From the NCBI GenBank assembly GCA_002010665.1, contig MTON01000024.1, forward strand, positions 206,072 through 268,811: 62,740 nt of DNA, given 5' to 3'. Below are positions 5,885-62,740 of this stretch, in pieces (position 1 is the stretch's first letter; each line of letters begins with the position of its first letter). Position numbers and translations under genes: made by a program. Under the pieces are notes generated by a model, which saw only the letters and a program-made list of their open reading frames with translations, did no database searches and was not told the origin of the DNA. The stretch comes from Candidatus Aminicenantes bacterium JdFR-78 (GTDB lineage: Bacteria > Acidobacteriota > Aminicenantia > JdFR-78).

Positions 5885-6610
5885 ATGGGAATACTGAAAG
5901 TTGAAAAAATAGTAAAATTAGCAATATGGTTCCTATCTCTAATAGCTTTAATGCTTTTTACAACTCTAATAACAATGAAAATAATATTAAAGGAAGATGT
6001 TGTAAGAGTTCCAGATTTAAAAGGTAAATCAGTGGATGAAGCAAGAGAAGAACTTGCAAACATAGGATTATATCTTGTCCAAAAAGCAACTAAATTCAGT
6101 ATGAATGTACCCTTTGGTAAAATTATGGAACAAGAACCTGAACCTGGCTCTAAAATAAAAAGAAATAAAGAAGTAAAGGTAATTGTAAGTGCAGGAAGGG
6201 AAAGAGTTAAAGTACCTAATCTAATCGGTAAAGATCTAATGGAAATAAAAGAAATTCTAAAAAAATCAAATTTAAGAAGGGGGTTAATTGTTCAGACCCA
6301 CTCACCAAAATTCAGTGCTGGAAGGATAATTGCTCAAAGTCCAGAGCCTGGATTAGAAGTAGAAAGTGGAAGCCGGATAAGTCTTCTTGTAAGTCAAGGA
6401 TACGAGGAAGAAAAATATATAATGCCGGATTTAATCGGAAAAAAGTTAGAGACAACAATTCCATTACTTCAGAAATTGGGTTTTAAAATAGGAATTATCA
6501 GATATACATATTACCCTGGATTAGAACCGGGAATTATAATAAAACAGCTTCCATTGAGTGGTTACAGAGTCTATAAAAGCAATTTAATCTCCTTGGAGGT
6601 AAGCAAATAA
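5885..6610 (+). CDS. Membrane-anchored three-PASTA-domain protein
   Basis: The 241-aa protein has one N-terminal transmembrane helix (about residues 13-33), then three PASTA domains at roughly 38-103, 104-171 and 172-241. Each opens with VPDLKGK/VPNLIGK/MPDLIGK-type turns and contains a PxPG-like loop. PASTA domains bind muropeptides or beta-lactam-like ligands and usually sit on the extracellular side of Ser/Thr kinases or PBPs. Here no catalytic domain is attached. The stop overlaps the rpe start (TAATG), so the two are translationally coupled, and the gene heads the operon with rpe and the epimerase. The exact role is unknown; a periplasmic cell-wall sensor or scaffold is inferred. Confidence 0.85.
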   Translation: MGILKVEKIVKLAIWFLSLIALMLFTTLITMKIILKEDVVRVPDLKGKSVDEAREELANIGLYLVQKATKFSMNVPFGKIMEQEPEPGSKIKRNKEVKVIVSAGRERVKVPNLIGKDLMEIKEILKKSNLRRGLIVQTHSPKFSAGRIIAQSPEPGLEVESGSRISLLVSQGYEEEKYIMPDLIGKKLETTIPLLQKLGFKIGIIRYTYYPGLEPGIIIKQLPLSGYRVYKSNLISLEVSK

Positions 6611-57672: not shown

Positions 57673-57872
57673 TTATTTTTTTAAAATTTCATTTATCTGT
57701 TTTAAAAATTCTTCAAAATCATTTATATTTGCTAACGAAGAGTATAAATATTCTTTTTATCTTTCAGAAACGCTTCTTCTTCCAGAGCTATCAAAGATTT
57801 TATTTCAGAAATTGTATCCAGAAGGTCCTTTTCCAGAGTTTTGATTTTTTCAATGTTTATTTCTTTATGCAT
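57673..57872 (-). pseudogene. Remnant of a hepT (HEPN/DUF86) toxin gene
   Basis: An ATG at 57872, overlapping the mntA stop by 16 nt, opens a 46-codon frame whose product (IEKIKTLEKDLLDTISEIK, then EEEAFLKDKKNIYTLR) is a HEPN/DUF86-like N terminus. It stops at TAG 57732. A shifted frame to TAA 57673 reads NINDFEEFLKQINEILKK, a DUF86-type C terminus. The central part with the RX4-6H RNase motif is missing. About half of the usual ~400 bp is left. Confidence 0.75.
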
Positions 57873-58279
57873 TCCATAAGCTCTTTGAAATAGGATTTAG
57901 AAAATTCATAATAATCCATGTATTCCAGTCCAACTTTTTCTAAAAAATCAAGTCTCAAAAGCCTATCTCTTTCAAAAAGCAAAGTGCCTTCATTTATCAC
58001 TGAAAACTGGAATCCAATGGGTGCATAATTAATTACTTTAAAATCCACATTAAATCCAGTCTCTCTTTCAATTTCAGAGGTTATATCAAGTTCAAAATCA
58101 AATACTTTATCCTCAGGTATAAGACAATACCCAGCTATATCAATATCTCTGAAAGGCTGGAGCCCAAATGAACCGTGCAAATAGGCAAAAGATATTTCCT
58201 TATGTTTTAAAAGAACTGATATAATTTTTTGTTTTATCTTCTCAATTTCCTCAGGGGACAATTCAAACCTTTGTGCCAT
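57857..58279 (-). CDS. MntA-type minimal nucleotidyltransferase (antitoxin of a HepT-MntA pair)
   Basis: The 140-aa protein has the nucleotidyltransferase motif GS (36-37) followed by DIDIAGY with D45/D47, shorter than the classical spacing (GS-X7-DxD). Family members AMPylate and so neutralise HepT (type VII toxin-antitoxin). The partner hepT downstream is broken. Start ATG 58279 is preferred to GTG 58282 because the promoter -10 box is only 7 nt away. Confidence 0.82.
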   Translation of the reverse strand: MAQRFELSPEEIEKIKQKIISVLLKHKEISFAYLHGSFGLQPFRDIDIAGYCLIPEDKVFDFELDITSEIERETGFNVDFKVINYAPIGFQFSVINEGTLLFERDRLLRLDFLEKVGLEYMDYYEFSKSYFKELMECIKK

Positions 58280-58286
58280 CACGCTA

Positions 58287-58379: not shown

Positions 58380-60221
58380 ATGAAAAAAAAGTTTTTAGAA
58401 TTACTGAAAGACAGAGTTCTCCTCTGCGACGGTGCAATGGGCACCATGCTTTACAATAAAGGAGTTTATCTTAATAGCTGTTTTGATGAATTGAATCTTT
58501 CCAATCCAGAACTTGTGAAAAAGATTCATCAGGAATATGTGGATAGCGGTGTGGATATAATAGAAACAAATACATTTGGAGCAAATCGCTATAAATTAAA
58601 AAAATTTGGTCTGGAGGAAAAAGTAAAGGAAATCAATATTGCAGGAGCAAAAATTGCACGAGAAATTGCACAGAATAAAGTTTTTGTTGCTGGTTCTATA
58701 GGACCTCTTGGATTGAAAATTGAGCCATGGGGACCAACTTCTTTTGAAGAAGCAGAAGAAGCTTTTTATGAACAGGCTTCTGGATTGCTGGAAGGAGGAG
58801 TGGATTTATTCATTCTTGAGACATTTTCAGATGTCAATGAAATACATCAAGCAATAAAAGCAGTAAAAAGGCTCTGTGACCTGCCTATTATAGCTCAGAT
58901 GACCATTGAGGAAGATGGAAACAGTCTATATGGAACTTCTCCTGAAGTTTTCACAAGAAGACTTGAGGAATGGGGAGCAGATGTAATTGGAGTAAATTGC
59001 AGTGTTGGACCTGCTGCTACTTTAGCATGTATTGAAAGAATGGTTAAAGTTACTGATAAACCACTCTCTGCAATGCCAAATGCAGGTGTTCCAAGAAATG
59101 TGGAGGGAAGAAATATTTACTTATGCTCACCTGAGTATTTAGCAGAGTATGCAAAGAGATTTATTCTGACAGGAGTGAAGATTGTTGGAGGATGCTGTGG
59201 AACAACTCCTGCTCATATAAGAGCAGTAAGAAGAGCAATCAGAGCTCTTCAACCAGAGAAAAAGGTCTTTCCGAAAATTGAGATAAAAGAAATTGAGAAA
59301 AAACCTGAGATAAAACCTGTAGAAAGAAGAGAAAAATCACAGCTTGCAAGGAAACTTTGCGATAAGGAGTTTGTAATAAGTGTTGAGATTGTTCCTCCAA
59401 GGGGATTTGACCCCTCCCCTGCTCTTGAAAAGGCAAAGTGGTTAAAGGAAATGGGAATTGATTGTGTGAATATACCAGATGGTCCAAGGGCAAGTGCACG
59501 CATGAGTGCAATGTCTTTAGCTGTAATAATAGAAAATAAAGCAGGAATTGAAACAATATTGCACTATACATGTAGAGATAGGAATCTTCTTGGTATGCAA
59601 TCTGACCTGCTCGGGGCATATGCTCAGGGATTGAAAAATATCCTTGTTATTACAGGAGACCCACCTAAGATGGGCGATTATCCTGATGCAACAGCGGTTT
59701 TTGATGTTGACTCAATTGGGCTTTGCAATCTGGTGAATGCTTTAAACAGAGGTATTGACCTTGGAGGAAAAGCACTTAAGAAGCCGACTGGTTTTCATCT
59801 TGGAGTTGGAGCAAATCCAGGAGCTATAAATCTGGATTATGAGATAAGGCGTTTTGAATATAAAGTGGAGGCTGGAGCTGAGTTTGCAATCACCCAGCCT
59901 GTATTTGACATTAAGTTATTGGAAAATTTTCTTAAAAGAATTTCCCATTGCAGAATTCCAATTATTGCTGGAATCTGGCCATTGGCGAGTTTACAGAATG
60001 CAGAATTTATGAATAATGAGGTTCCTGGTGCAAGAGTTCCTCCTGAAATCATGGATAGAATGAGAAAAGCAAATGAAAAAGGAAGCGAATTCGCCCGCCA
60101 GGAAGGAATCGCAATTGCCCGAGAAGTCCTCTCTGAAATTAAAGATATGGTCGAAGGAGTTCAGATTAGCCCTCCGTTCGGAAGAGTAGAAGTGGTGAAG
60201 GAGATAATTTCGGTTTTGTGA
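58380..60221 (+). CDS. Bifunctional homocysteine S-methyltransferase / 5,10-methylenetetrahydrofolate reductase
   Basis: The 613-aa protein has an N-terminal homocysteine S-methyltransferase domain (about 1-290; LCDGAMGTML, zinc cysteines C207, C272 and C273 in GVNCSVGP and GGCCGTTPAHI) and a C-terminal MTHFR domain (about 325-613; VEIVPPRGFDPS near 353, LLVITGDPP-like ILVITGDPPKMGD, GVGANPGA and a flavin-site AGAEFAITQPVFD). The fusion is known in Firmicutes and other lineages (YitJ type). It supplies methyl groups for methionine; MetH/B12 partners are outside the window. Its 3' end is partly copied at 61237-61284. Confidence 0.92.
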   Translation: MKKKFLELLKDRVLLCDGAMGTMLYNKGVYLNSCFDELNLSNPELVKKIHQEYVDSGVDIIETNTFGANRYKLKKFGLEEKVKEINIAGAKIAREIAQNKVFVAGSIGPLGLKIEPWGPTSFEEAEEAFYEQASGLLEGGVDLFILETFSDVNEIHQAIKAVKRLCDLPIIAQMTIEEDGNSLYGTSPEVFTRRLEEWGADVIGVNCSVGPAATLACIERMVKVTDKPLSAMPNAGVPRNVEGRNIYLCSPEYLAEYAKRFILTGVKIVGGCCGTTPAHIRAVRRAIRALQPEKKVFPKIEIKEIEKKPEIKPVERREKSQLARKLCDKEFVISVEIVPPRGFDPSPALEKAKWLKEMGIDCVNIPDGPRASARMSAMSLAVIIENKAGIETILHYTCRDRNLLGMQSDLLGAYAQGLKNILVITGDPPKMGDYPDATAVFDVDSIGLCNLVNALNRGIDLGGKALKKPTGFHLGVGANPGAINLDYEIRRFEYKVEAGAEFAITQPVFDIKLLENFLKRISHCRIPIIAGIWPLASLQNAEFMNNEVPGARVPPEIMDRMRKANEKGSEFARQEGIAIAREVLSEIKDMVEGVQISPPFGRVEVVKEIISVL

Positions 60222-60390: not shown

Positions 60391-60741
60391 TTATTCATCA
60401 GTGCCCAGTTTTGCAAGAATGTTTTCTATCTTTTCTTTTAATTCTGGGACTTTATTCTTAATAATATCCCATATAATTTCTGTGTCTATGCCAAAATAAA
60501 CATGAATAAGAATATCTCTTAGCCCTCCGATCTTTTTCCATTCTACATCTGGATTGTCTTTCTTAATACTTTCAGGTATGTTTTTTGTCGCTTCTCCTAT
60601 AATTTCAAGATTTCTTACTACCCCATCTTGAATTAACTCATTCTTCTTAAATTCTTCCAAACTAATATTTTCTGTGTATCTATTAATCTTATTTATTGCT
60701 CTAAGAATATCTTTGAGGTATGCTTTATATTCCCGTGGCAT
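60391..60741 (-). CDS. HepT (HEPN/DUF86) toxin
   Basis: The 116-aa HEPN protein (AYLKDILRAINKINRYTENI, then GEATKNIPESIK) keeps the catalytic RX4H motif, R75 to H80 in LRDILIHVYFGID. It is a predicted RNase toxin of the type VII system. It overlaps the mntA start region by 17 nt, so the antitoxin is made first. In contrast to the pair at 57.7-58.3 kb, both genes here are intact. Confidence 0.88.
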   Translation of the reverse strand: MPREYKAYLKDILRAINKINRYTENISLEEFKKNELIQDGVVRNLEIIGEATKNIPESIKKDNPDVEWKKIGGLRDILIHVYFGIDTEIIWDIIKNKVPELKEKIENILAKLGTDE

Positions 60742-61027
60742 ACTTCACATTCTCTAATATATTGGATTTTAAATCAGGTTTTATAGTTTCTATAATTACA
60801 AGATCTACTTTACAATTGAATAAGTCCTCTAAAAAGAATTTCAGATCCATATAATTATCAAAAGTTTTCATCCCTTTTTCAAACTCTACTAATATGTCTA
60901 TATCACTTCCTGACTTTTGTTCATTACGAACATATGAACCAAATAAGCCTATTTTCTTAACCCCAAATCTTTTGATTTTTTTCTTATTTTCTTTAATTTT
61001 TTCTAATATTTCATCTGATTTTAACAT
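60725..61027 (-). CDS. MntA-type minimal nucleotidyltransferase (antitoxin)
   Basis: The 100-aa protein has GLFGSYVRNEQKSGSDIDILVEF with the catalytic GS-X10-DxD pattern (G30, S31, D42, D44). It is expected to AMPylate HepT. GGAGG lies 9 nt before the ATG. It is a different subfamily from the 140-aa protein at 57857. Confidence 0.88.
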   Translation of the reverse strand: MLKSDEILEKIKENKKKIKRFGVKKIGLFGSYVRNEQKSGSDIDILVEFEKGMKTFDNYMDLKFFLEDLFNCKVDLVIIETIKPDLKSNILENVKYATGI

Positions 61028-61143
61028 TCTAAATAGCCTCCATTTACTGCAACAATTATGATTACCTCATTTAATTTTCTCGTATTTTGGCGTTGCCCCG
61101 AAGGATTTTTTATCATTAATTAGCACTTATTAACCCTCTCTGG

Positions 61144-61173
61144 TTTTATCATAATGAAAAAATAAATTCAAGT
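61144..61173. repeat. Imperfect direct repeat, left copy
   Basis: TTTTATCATAAT followed by an A-tract and TAAATTCAAGT. It matches 62613-62643 with two substitutions and one inserted base. The pair brackets the nuclease gene, but the low complexity makes chance similarity possible. Confidence 0.35.
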
Positions 61174-61189: not shown

Positions 61190-61333
61190 AAGAGGAAAAA
61201 TTGTTCTTCCAAGAAACAATTGTTTTCATCGCACAAATCAAAGATGTGGTCGAAAATGTTCAAATCAGCCCACCGCTCGGAAGAAAATTCACACGAAAGC
61301 GTGAGCTGAAAACAAATATCCACTATTATTAAA
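61190..61333 (+). pseudogene. Relic of a metF-like 3' end
   Basis: The frame between a TAA at 61187-61189 and a TAA at 61331-61333 contains 16 codons (61237-61284) whose translation IKDVVENVQISPPLGR matches IKDMVEGVQISPPFGR at the C terminus of the bifunctional enzyme (60138-60185). Nucleotide identity is 39 of 48 by my count, with many of the changes at third positions. The flanking codons show no match. Confidence 0.75.
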
Positions 61334-62518: not shown

Positions 62519-62612
62519 ATTTCATACCTTTAACAATAAAAAATTTTTAATTCTTAAATCCGAATCAGCTCTTAATCCTCTTTGCCTACTCTGCACTCGA
62601 AACCCCTTTTCC

Positions 62613-62643
62613 TTTTATCACAATAAAAAAATAAATGTCAAGT
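62613..62643. repeat. Imperfect direct repeat, right copy
   Basis: TTTTATCACAAT followed by an A-tract and TAAATGTCAAGT; see the left copy at 61144-61173. Together they bracket a 1.5 kb segment containing the nuclease gene. Confidence 0.35.
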
Positions 62644-62740
62644 TTCAGAATTCTCTTGGCCAAAATAGATATAGACATATTTACCAGTTAGAGAGGAAAA
62701 AGTTAATAAAGAGAGTTGAGGCTGCCCATCACATCCTGGG

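Follow-up and report, generated by a model that had tools for sequence, protein, structure and literature searches.

Why should the end of a methionine-pathway gene recur, out of context, beyond the gene itself? The question arises in Candidatus Aminicenantes bacterium JdFR-78, where the terminal 62.7 kb of contig C1 (the window, that is, the whole stretch of DNA analysed here) carry an intact metF and, about 1.1 kb past its coding end, a short segment on the same strand that reads like the last part of that gene. Between the two lies a putative toxin-antitoxin pair. The features that bear on the question are as follows.

58380..60221, + strand: intact metF, encoding a bifunctional homocysteine S-methyltransferase/methylenetetrahydrofolate reductase of 613 aa (Pfam PF02574 and PF02219; NCBIfam PRK08645.1)
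60136..60185, + strand: counterpart of the stray copy within intact metF, 36 nt ahead of the gene end
60391..60741, - strand: HepT-like RNase toxin (putative), 116 aa (PF01934, E 4e-32; R-X4-H-X-Y, read as RDILIHVY)
60725..61027, - strand: MntA-like nucleotidyltransferase antitoxin (putative), 100 aa (PF01909, E 1e-18; GS-X10-DXD)
61132..61173, - strand: partial copy of an intergenic repeat, with a promoter-like TTGAAT...ATAAAA upstream of mntA
61235..61284, + strand: stray copy of coding sequence from the metF 3' end, comprising 2 bases and 16 codons with 41/50 nt identical, out of context and without the metF stop codon
61348..62433, - strand: gene for an accessory protein of 361 aa, family unassigned, by eye a candidate PD-(D/E)XK-type nuclease (YDGVWRRENGDTIVLEVKT)
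62546..62659, - strand: more complete copy of the intergenic repeat seen at 61132..61173, 88% identical to G000:C23:30428-30542

A second, bounded copy of the end of metF

The metF product scores 785 bits against NCBIfam PRK08645.1, for which the cut-off is 453. The nearest MetF proteins share ~72% aa identity with it and come mostly from Candidatus Aminicenantes genomes, with one labelled Clostridiales; the comparison genomes are distant relatives, and none belongs to the same order.

The initial annotation had placed a metF-like 48-nt site beyond the real one, and this was borne out. Positions 61237-61284 match 60138-60185 at 39 of 48 nt in a shared frame (IKDVVENVQISPPLGR against IKDMVEGVQISPPFGR), and the two bases at 61235-61236 are also identical to metF, which extends the match to 50 nt. 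Under a binomial model, agreement at 39/48 has a probability of 2.3e-14 per position, corresponding to ~1e-7 genome-wide and 9e-5 for all window pairs, and no stretch of a random control (20 x 250 kb, order-1) matched the metF tail at more than 29/48. When the metF region was compared with its own downstream DNA, blastn returned 61226-61284 at 78% identity over 59 nt (E 3e-10). A search of the 2.53-Mb genome with a pattern fitting both copies returned just two sites, metF and the stray copy. The longest exact runs that the two share are short, at fewer than 10 bases.

The similarity ends on both sides. On the right its last bases are GGAAGA, beyond which we found no metF codons; the sequence there is KFTRKRELKTNIHYY, unlike both the present metF tail (VEVVKEIISVL) and the tails of relatives. 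On the left, tblastn carried the alignment to 61159, but the added part is worth ~3 bits (hand-scored) and crosses stop codons, and this extension was rejected. A scan from 60222 to the contig end gave no other convincing metF remnant, and the 43-aa open reading frame around the stray copy was assigned to no family.

Accessory DNA beyond metF

In three relatives (loci L040, L042 and L043) metF and lpxB are adjacent and convergent, 0-256 nt apart. Here the hepT-mntA pair, the stray copy and the 361-aa gene come after metF, together with parts of an interspersed repeat, and the genome's own lpxB opens contig C37. Because lpxB starts that contig while accessory genes trail metF, the gap between the two genes is probably filled with accessory DNA, with the junction itself unassembled. 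The insertion of accessory DNA beyond metF is real, and since class relatives lack the 361-aa gene and metF faces lpxB in the three loci, the region between metF and lpxB is best described as a patchwork of insertions.

Judged by their motifs, the proteins of the pair would constitute a HepT-MntA (type VII) toxin-antitoxin module, as a HEPN protein with R-X4-H-X-Y is encoded beside an MNT protein with GS-X10-DXD; their scores against the NCBIfam HepT and MntA models, 53.9 and 55.3 bits, both lie under the cut-off of 60. In the other modules of the class that were scanned, nothing ties such a pair to a repeated gene end. The 361-aa protein had no match in Pfam, PADLOC or NCBIfam and no homologue among 142 class genomes; a core-like YDGVW...TIVLEVKT, recognised by eye, suggests that it is possibly a PD-(D/E)XK nuclease.

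Nature of the nucleotide changes

The nine differences in 48 nt alter seven codons. Four of these are silent, which corrects the earlier remark that many changes are synonymous; the other three are non-synonymous: M4V, G7N, in which all three bases differ, and F14L. In place of the Asn of the stray copy, 68 of 69 MetF tails carry Gly. At codon 14 the stray copy shares its Leu with close relatives (C in 4/6 at site 39). If every change is placed in the stray copy, the probability of three or fewer non-synonymous codons and no stop is 0.02; if 2-4 of the nine are taken as silent changes on the metF side, it is 0.07-0.23. Allowing for silent drift in metF, the synonymous bias is not significant, and the pattern fits neutral decay. 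The argument that an excess of synonymous change speaks against a decaying local duplicate is therefore weak. The same reasoning counsels caution more generally: since silent drift occurs in the intact gene as well, a handful of silent changes in a short repeat is no proof of a separate allele. Sequence-specific mutation of the kind produced by diversity-generating retroelements was ruled out, as the changes are not adenine-specific.

The stray copy is closer to its own metF than to the corresponding gene ends in relatives, which it matches at no more than 33/48. The divergence from its own metF, 19%, makes it nearly as distant as the metF of the nearest relative, which matches the own metF segment at 37/48, the highest value among the relatives.

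A proposed partial duplicate of metF

We favor a model in which the stray copy is a non-functional partial duplicate of ~50 bp, derived from the end of the genome's own metF by illegitimate copying while accessory DNA accumulated between metF and lpxB, and we consider this account about evenly balanced between right and wrong. The copying would have occurred by template switching or repair, and the HepT-MntA pair, the 361-aa gene and the interspersed-repeat pieces would have gathered between metF and lpxB over the same period. The duplication and its limits are established, as are the accessory character of the region and the loss of a conserved MetF residue; how the copying took place and the lack of function are inferred. 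Several observations support the model: the own metF is the closest match, the similarity is bounded on both sides, a conserved Gly has become Asn, the genome holds no further copy, the surrounding 43-aa frame belongs to no family and the changes fit neutral decay. The stray copy likewise resembles other short partial gene duplications, the gene-end relics found in intergenic accessory DNA, in being cut off on either side, removed from its context, devoid of a start or stop of its own and altered at a conserved residue. It differs from them in being rather diverged yet free of any indel or stop, and for a bacterial relic of this kind 19% divergence is old. The model must also accommodate the probability of ~0.02 for so few amino-acid changes when every change is assigned to the stray copy, and no direct mark of the copying mechanism, such as microhomology, is readable. 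Altogether, these data suggest that the stray copy is old and most likely an inert scrap rather than the displaced end of an element that inserted itself.

Possible integration at the gene end

The alternative that survives best, although we judge it unlikely, is integration at a gene end of the type known from e14 and icd. An element would have recombined into the 3' end of metF and brought a replacement tail, leaving either the former end or an internal copy of att on the far side of hepT-mntA; the integrase and the old tail would since have been lost. In Escherichia coli K-12, insertion of e14 into icd duplicated 165 bp, with 12 nucleotide exchanges and two conservative amino-acid changes, while the reading frame stayed intact (PMC11148124). 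A second gene end that has diverged, largely at silent sites, is thus just what such an event leaves behind. Blocks of att identity can be extensive, and attP can contain a replacement sequence (PMC10111431). As in icd, a diverged second gene end lies here past accessory DNA, beside the intact gene, and the metF-lpxB junction that is interrupted in this genome is unbroken in the three relatives, albeit distant ones (~72% aa). The present metF tail agrees with those at loci L039-L044, which are of the Y/F-E/D-x-A-L type, at only 1-4 of 11 positions (by-eye count), as expected of a swapped tail; this low likeness may be plain divergence, as the lineage stands alone in its order.

The form of the stray copy argues against integration. 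Irrespective of where crossover took place, the far copy would be expected to run on into the old metF tail, and instead it gives way to the unrelated sequence described above. The initial annotation had proposed that a cassette entered at the metF 3' end and displaced the old tail. Accessory DNA does lie beyond metF, and to that extent the proposal stands, but the stray copy stops 36 nt before the position of the metF stop and lacks the last 11 codons and the stop itself, so that no displaced tail is seen. The DNA to its right is another accessory gene, that for the 361-aa protein, and not old chromosome. The comparison with icd is instructive here. The displaced icdC corresponds over 165 bp to the final 54 codons and carries 12 changes, whereas the stray metF copy comprises 50 bp with 9 changes, lacks the last 36 nt of the gene, is accompanied by neither prophage nor integrase and has accessory DNA on both sides.

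The search for an element was likewise negative. No integrase is encoded between the copies or from there to the contig end, and the three tyrosine recombinases of the genome, two of them XerC/D-like by sequence reading, lie on other contigs (C24, C26 and C32). Downstream flanks of metF from 78 relatives (<=6 kb, a span that longer elements would escape) contain no second copy of the metF tail, the stray copy had no match in viral contigs, phages or plasmids, and no gene-end repeat of this kind was seen at the HepT loci of class relatives that were scanned.

A broader version of this idea, that small defence or toxin-antitoxin cassettes use the metF 3' end as their attachment site in Aminicenantia, with the present tail and the stray copy both being marks of integration, we hold to be improbable. 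Were it true, a metabolic gene would be added to the few protein-coding genes whose ends serve for integration, and the arrival of toxin-antitoxin cassettes in the same intergenic gap would be explained.

Possible alternatives: an imported allele or an antisense RNA

Rather unlikely, in our view, is an origin from a divergent metF allele, as the initial annotation had suggested, whereby a piece of the gene was imported from a related species together with the accessory DNA that adjoined it there. The small number of amino-acid changes for nine nucleotide changes (P 0.02 if the stray copy alone decayed), the Leu at codon 14 shared with close relatives and the accessory nature of the adjoining genes are all consistent with import. 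However, among the MetF sequences compared none is nearer to the stray copy than the genome's own gene, the replacement of a nearly invariant Gly by Asn would require at least two later changes, and the excess of silent change loses significance once drift in metF is counted. A separate allele is a possible source rather than a demonstrated one.

Very improbable is a functional antisense segment, in which minus-strand RNA from the 3' end of the 361-aa gene transcript would pair with the terminal part of the metF mRNA: six of the nine differences retain G-U pairing in the antisense direction, and the predicted duplex reaches -69.8 kcal/mol (-55.6 for the reverse combination, -90.3 for perfect pairing), but the asymmetry (6/7 transitions, p ~0.08 by hand) was spotted post hoc, minus-strand folding is unremarkable (z -1.5), the changes in the stray copy stabilise folding no more than random ones do, and an Rfam search of the region returned nothing relevant. 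A hairpin, RNA or single-stranded DNA element was also considered and rejected, since the plus strand folds slightly better than shuffled sequences (z -2.25) yet gains no more from the changes in the stray copy than from random ones, 23% of randomly changed versions doing equally well.

Other repeats and toxin-antitoxin genes

A general repeat flanking HepT modules was rejected as well. The best repeat flanking the genome's own second module is 71% identical over 35 AT-rich nt, and no such repeat was seen in the scanned class loci. The best pair among these, at L130 (G007:C43), is a 48-nt stretch repeated at 35/48 on either side of the HepT gene (ACCAAAAATCGCGAATT...CCCTTTTTT), which may be an interspersed repeat.

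The intergenic repeat that occurs twice downstream of metF belongs to an interspersed family (62546-62659, 61132-61173, G000:C23:30428-30542 and C23:26363-26413) whose members are up to 115 bp long and 84-88% identical and contain a promoter-like TTGACATTTATTTTTTTATTGTGATAAAA. One of the copies on C23 lies directly 3' of a PIN-domain toxin gene, vapC-like by reading. On the same contig (L161, G000:C23:25000-31585, at ~6250-6400) an attC-like inverted repeat, AACGCCTAAT...GGACATACGG...ATGTCC...ACGTTAGG, was seen by eye after a small methyltransferase gene; it does not match the strict integron core-site pattern.

Further MntA-type genes occur elsewhere in the genome, one on contig C3 and one at 57857-58282 (- strand), just upstream of metF, so that nucleotidyltransferase genes of this type flank metF on both sides. 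A 46-aa open reading frame at 57732-57872 adjoins the latter gene and could encode its partner.
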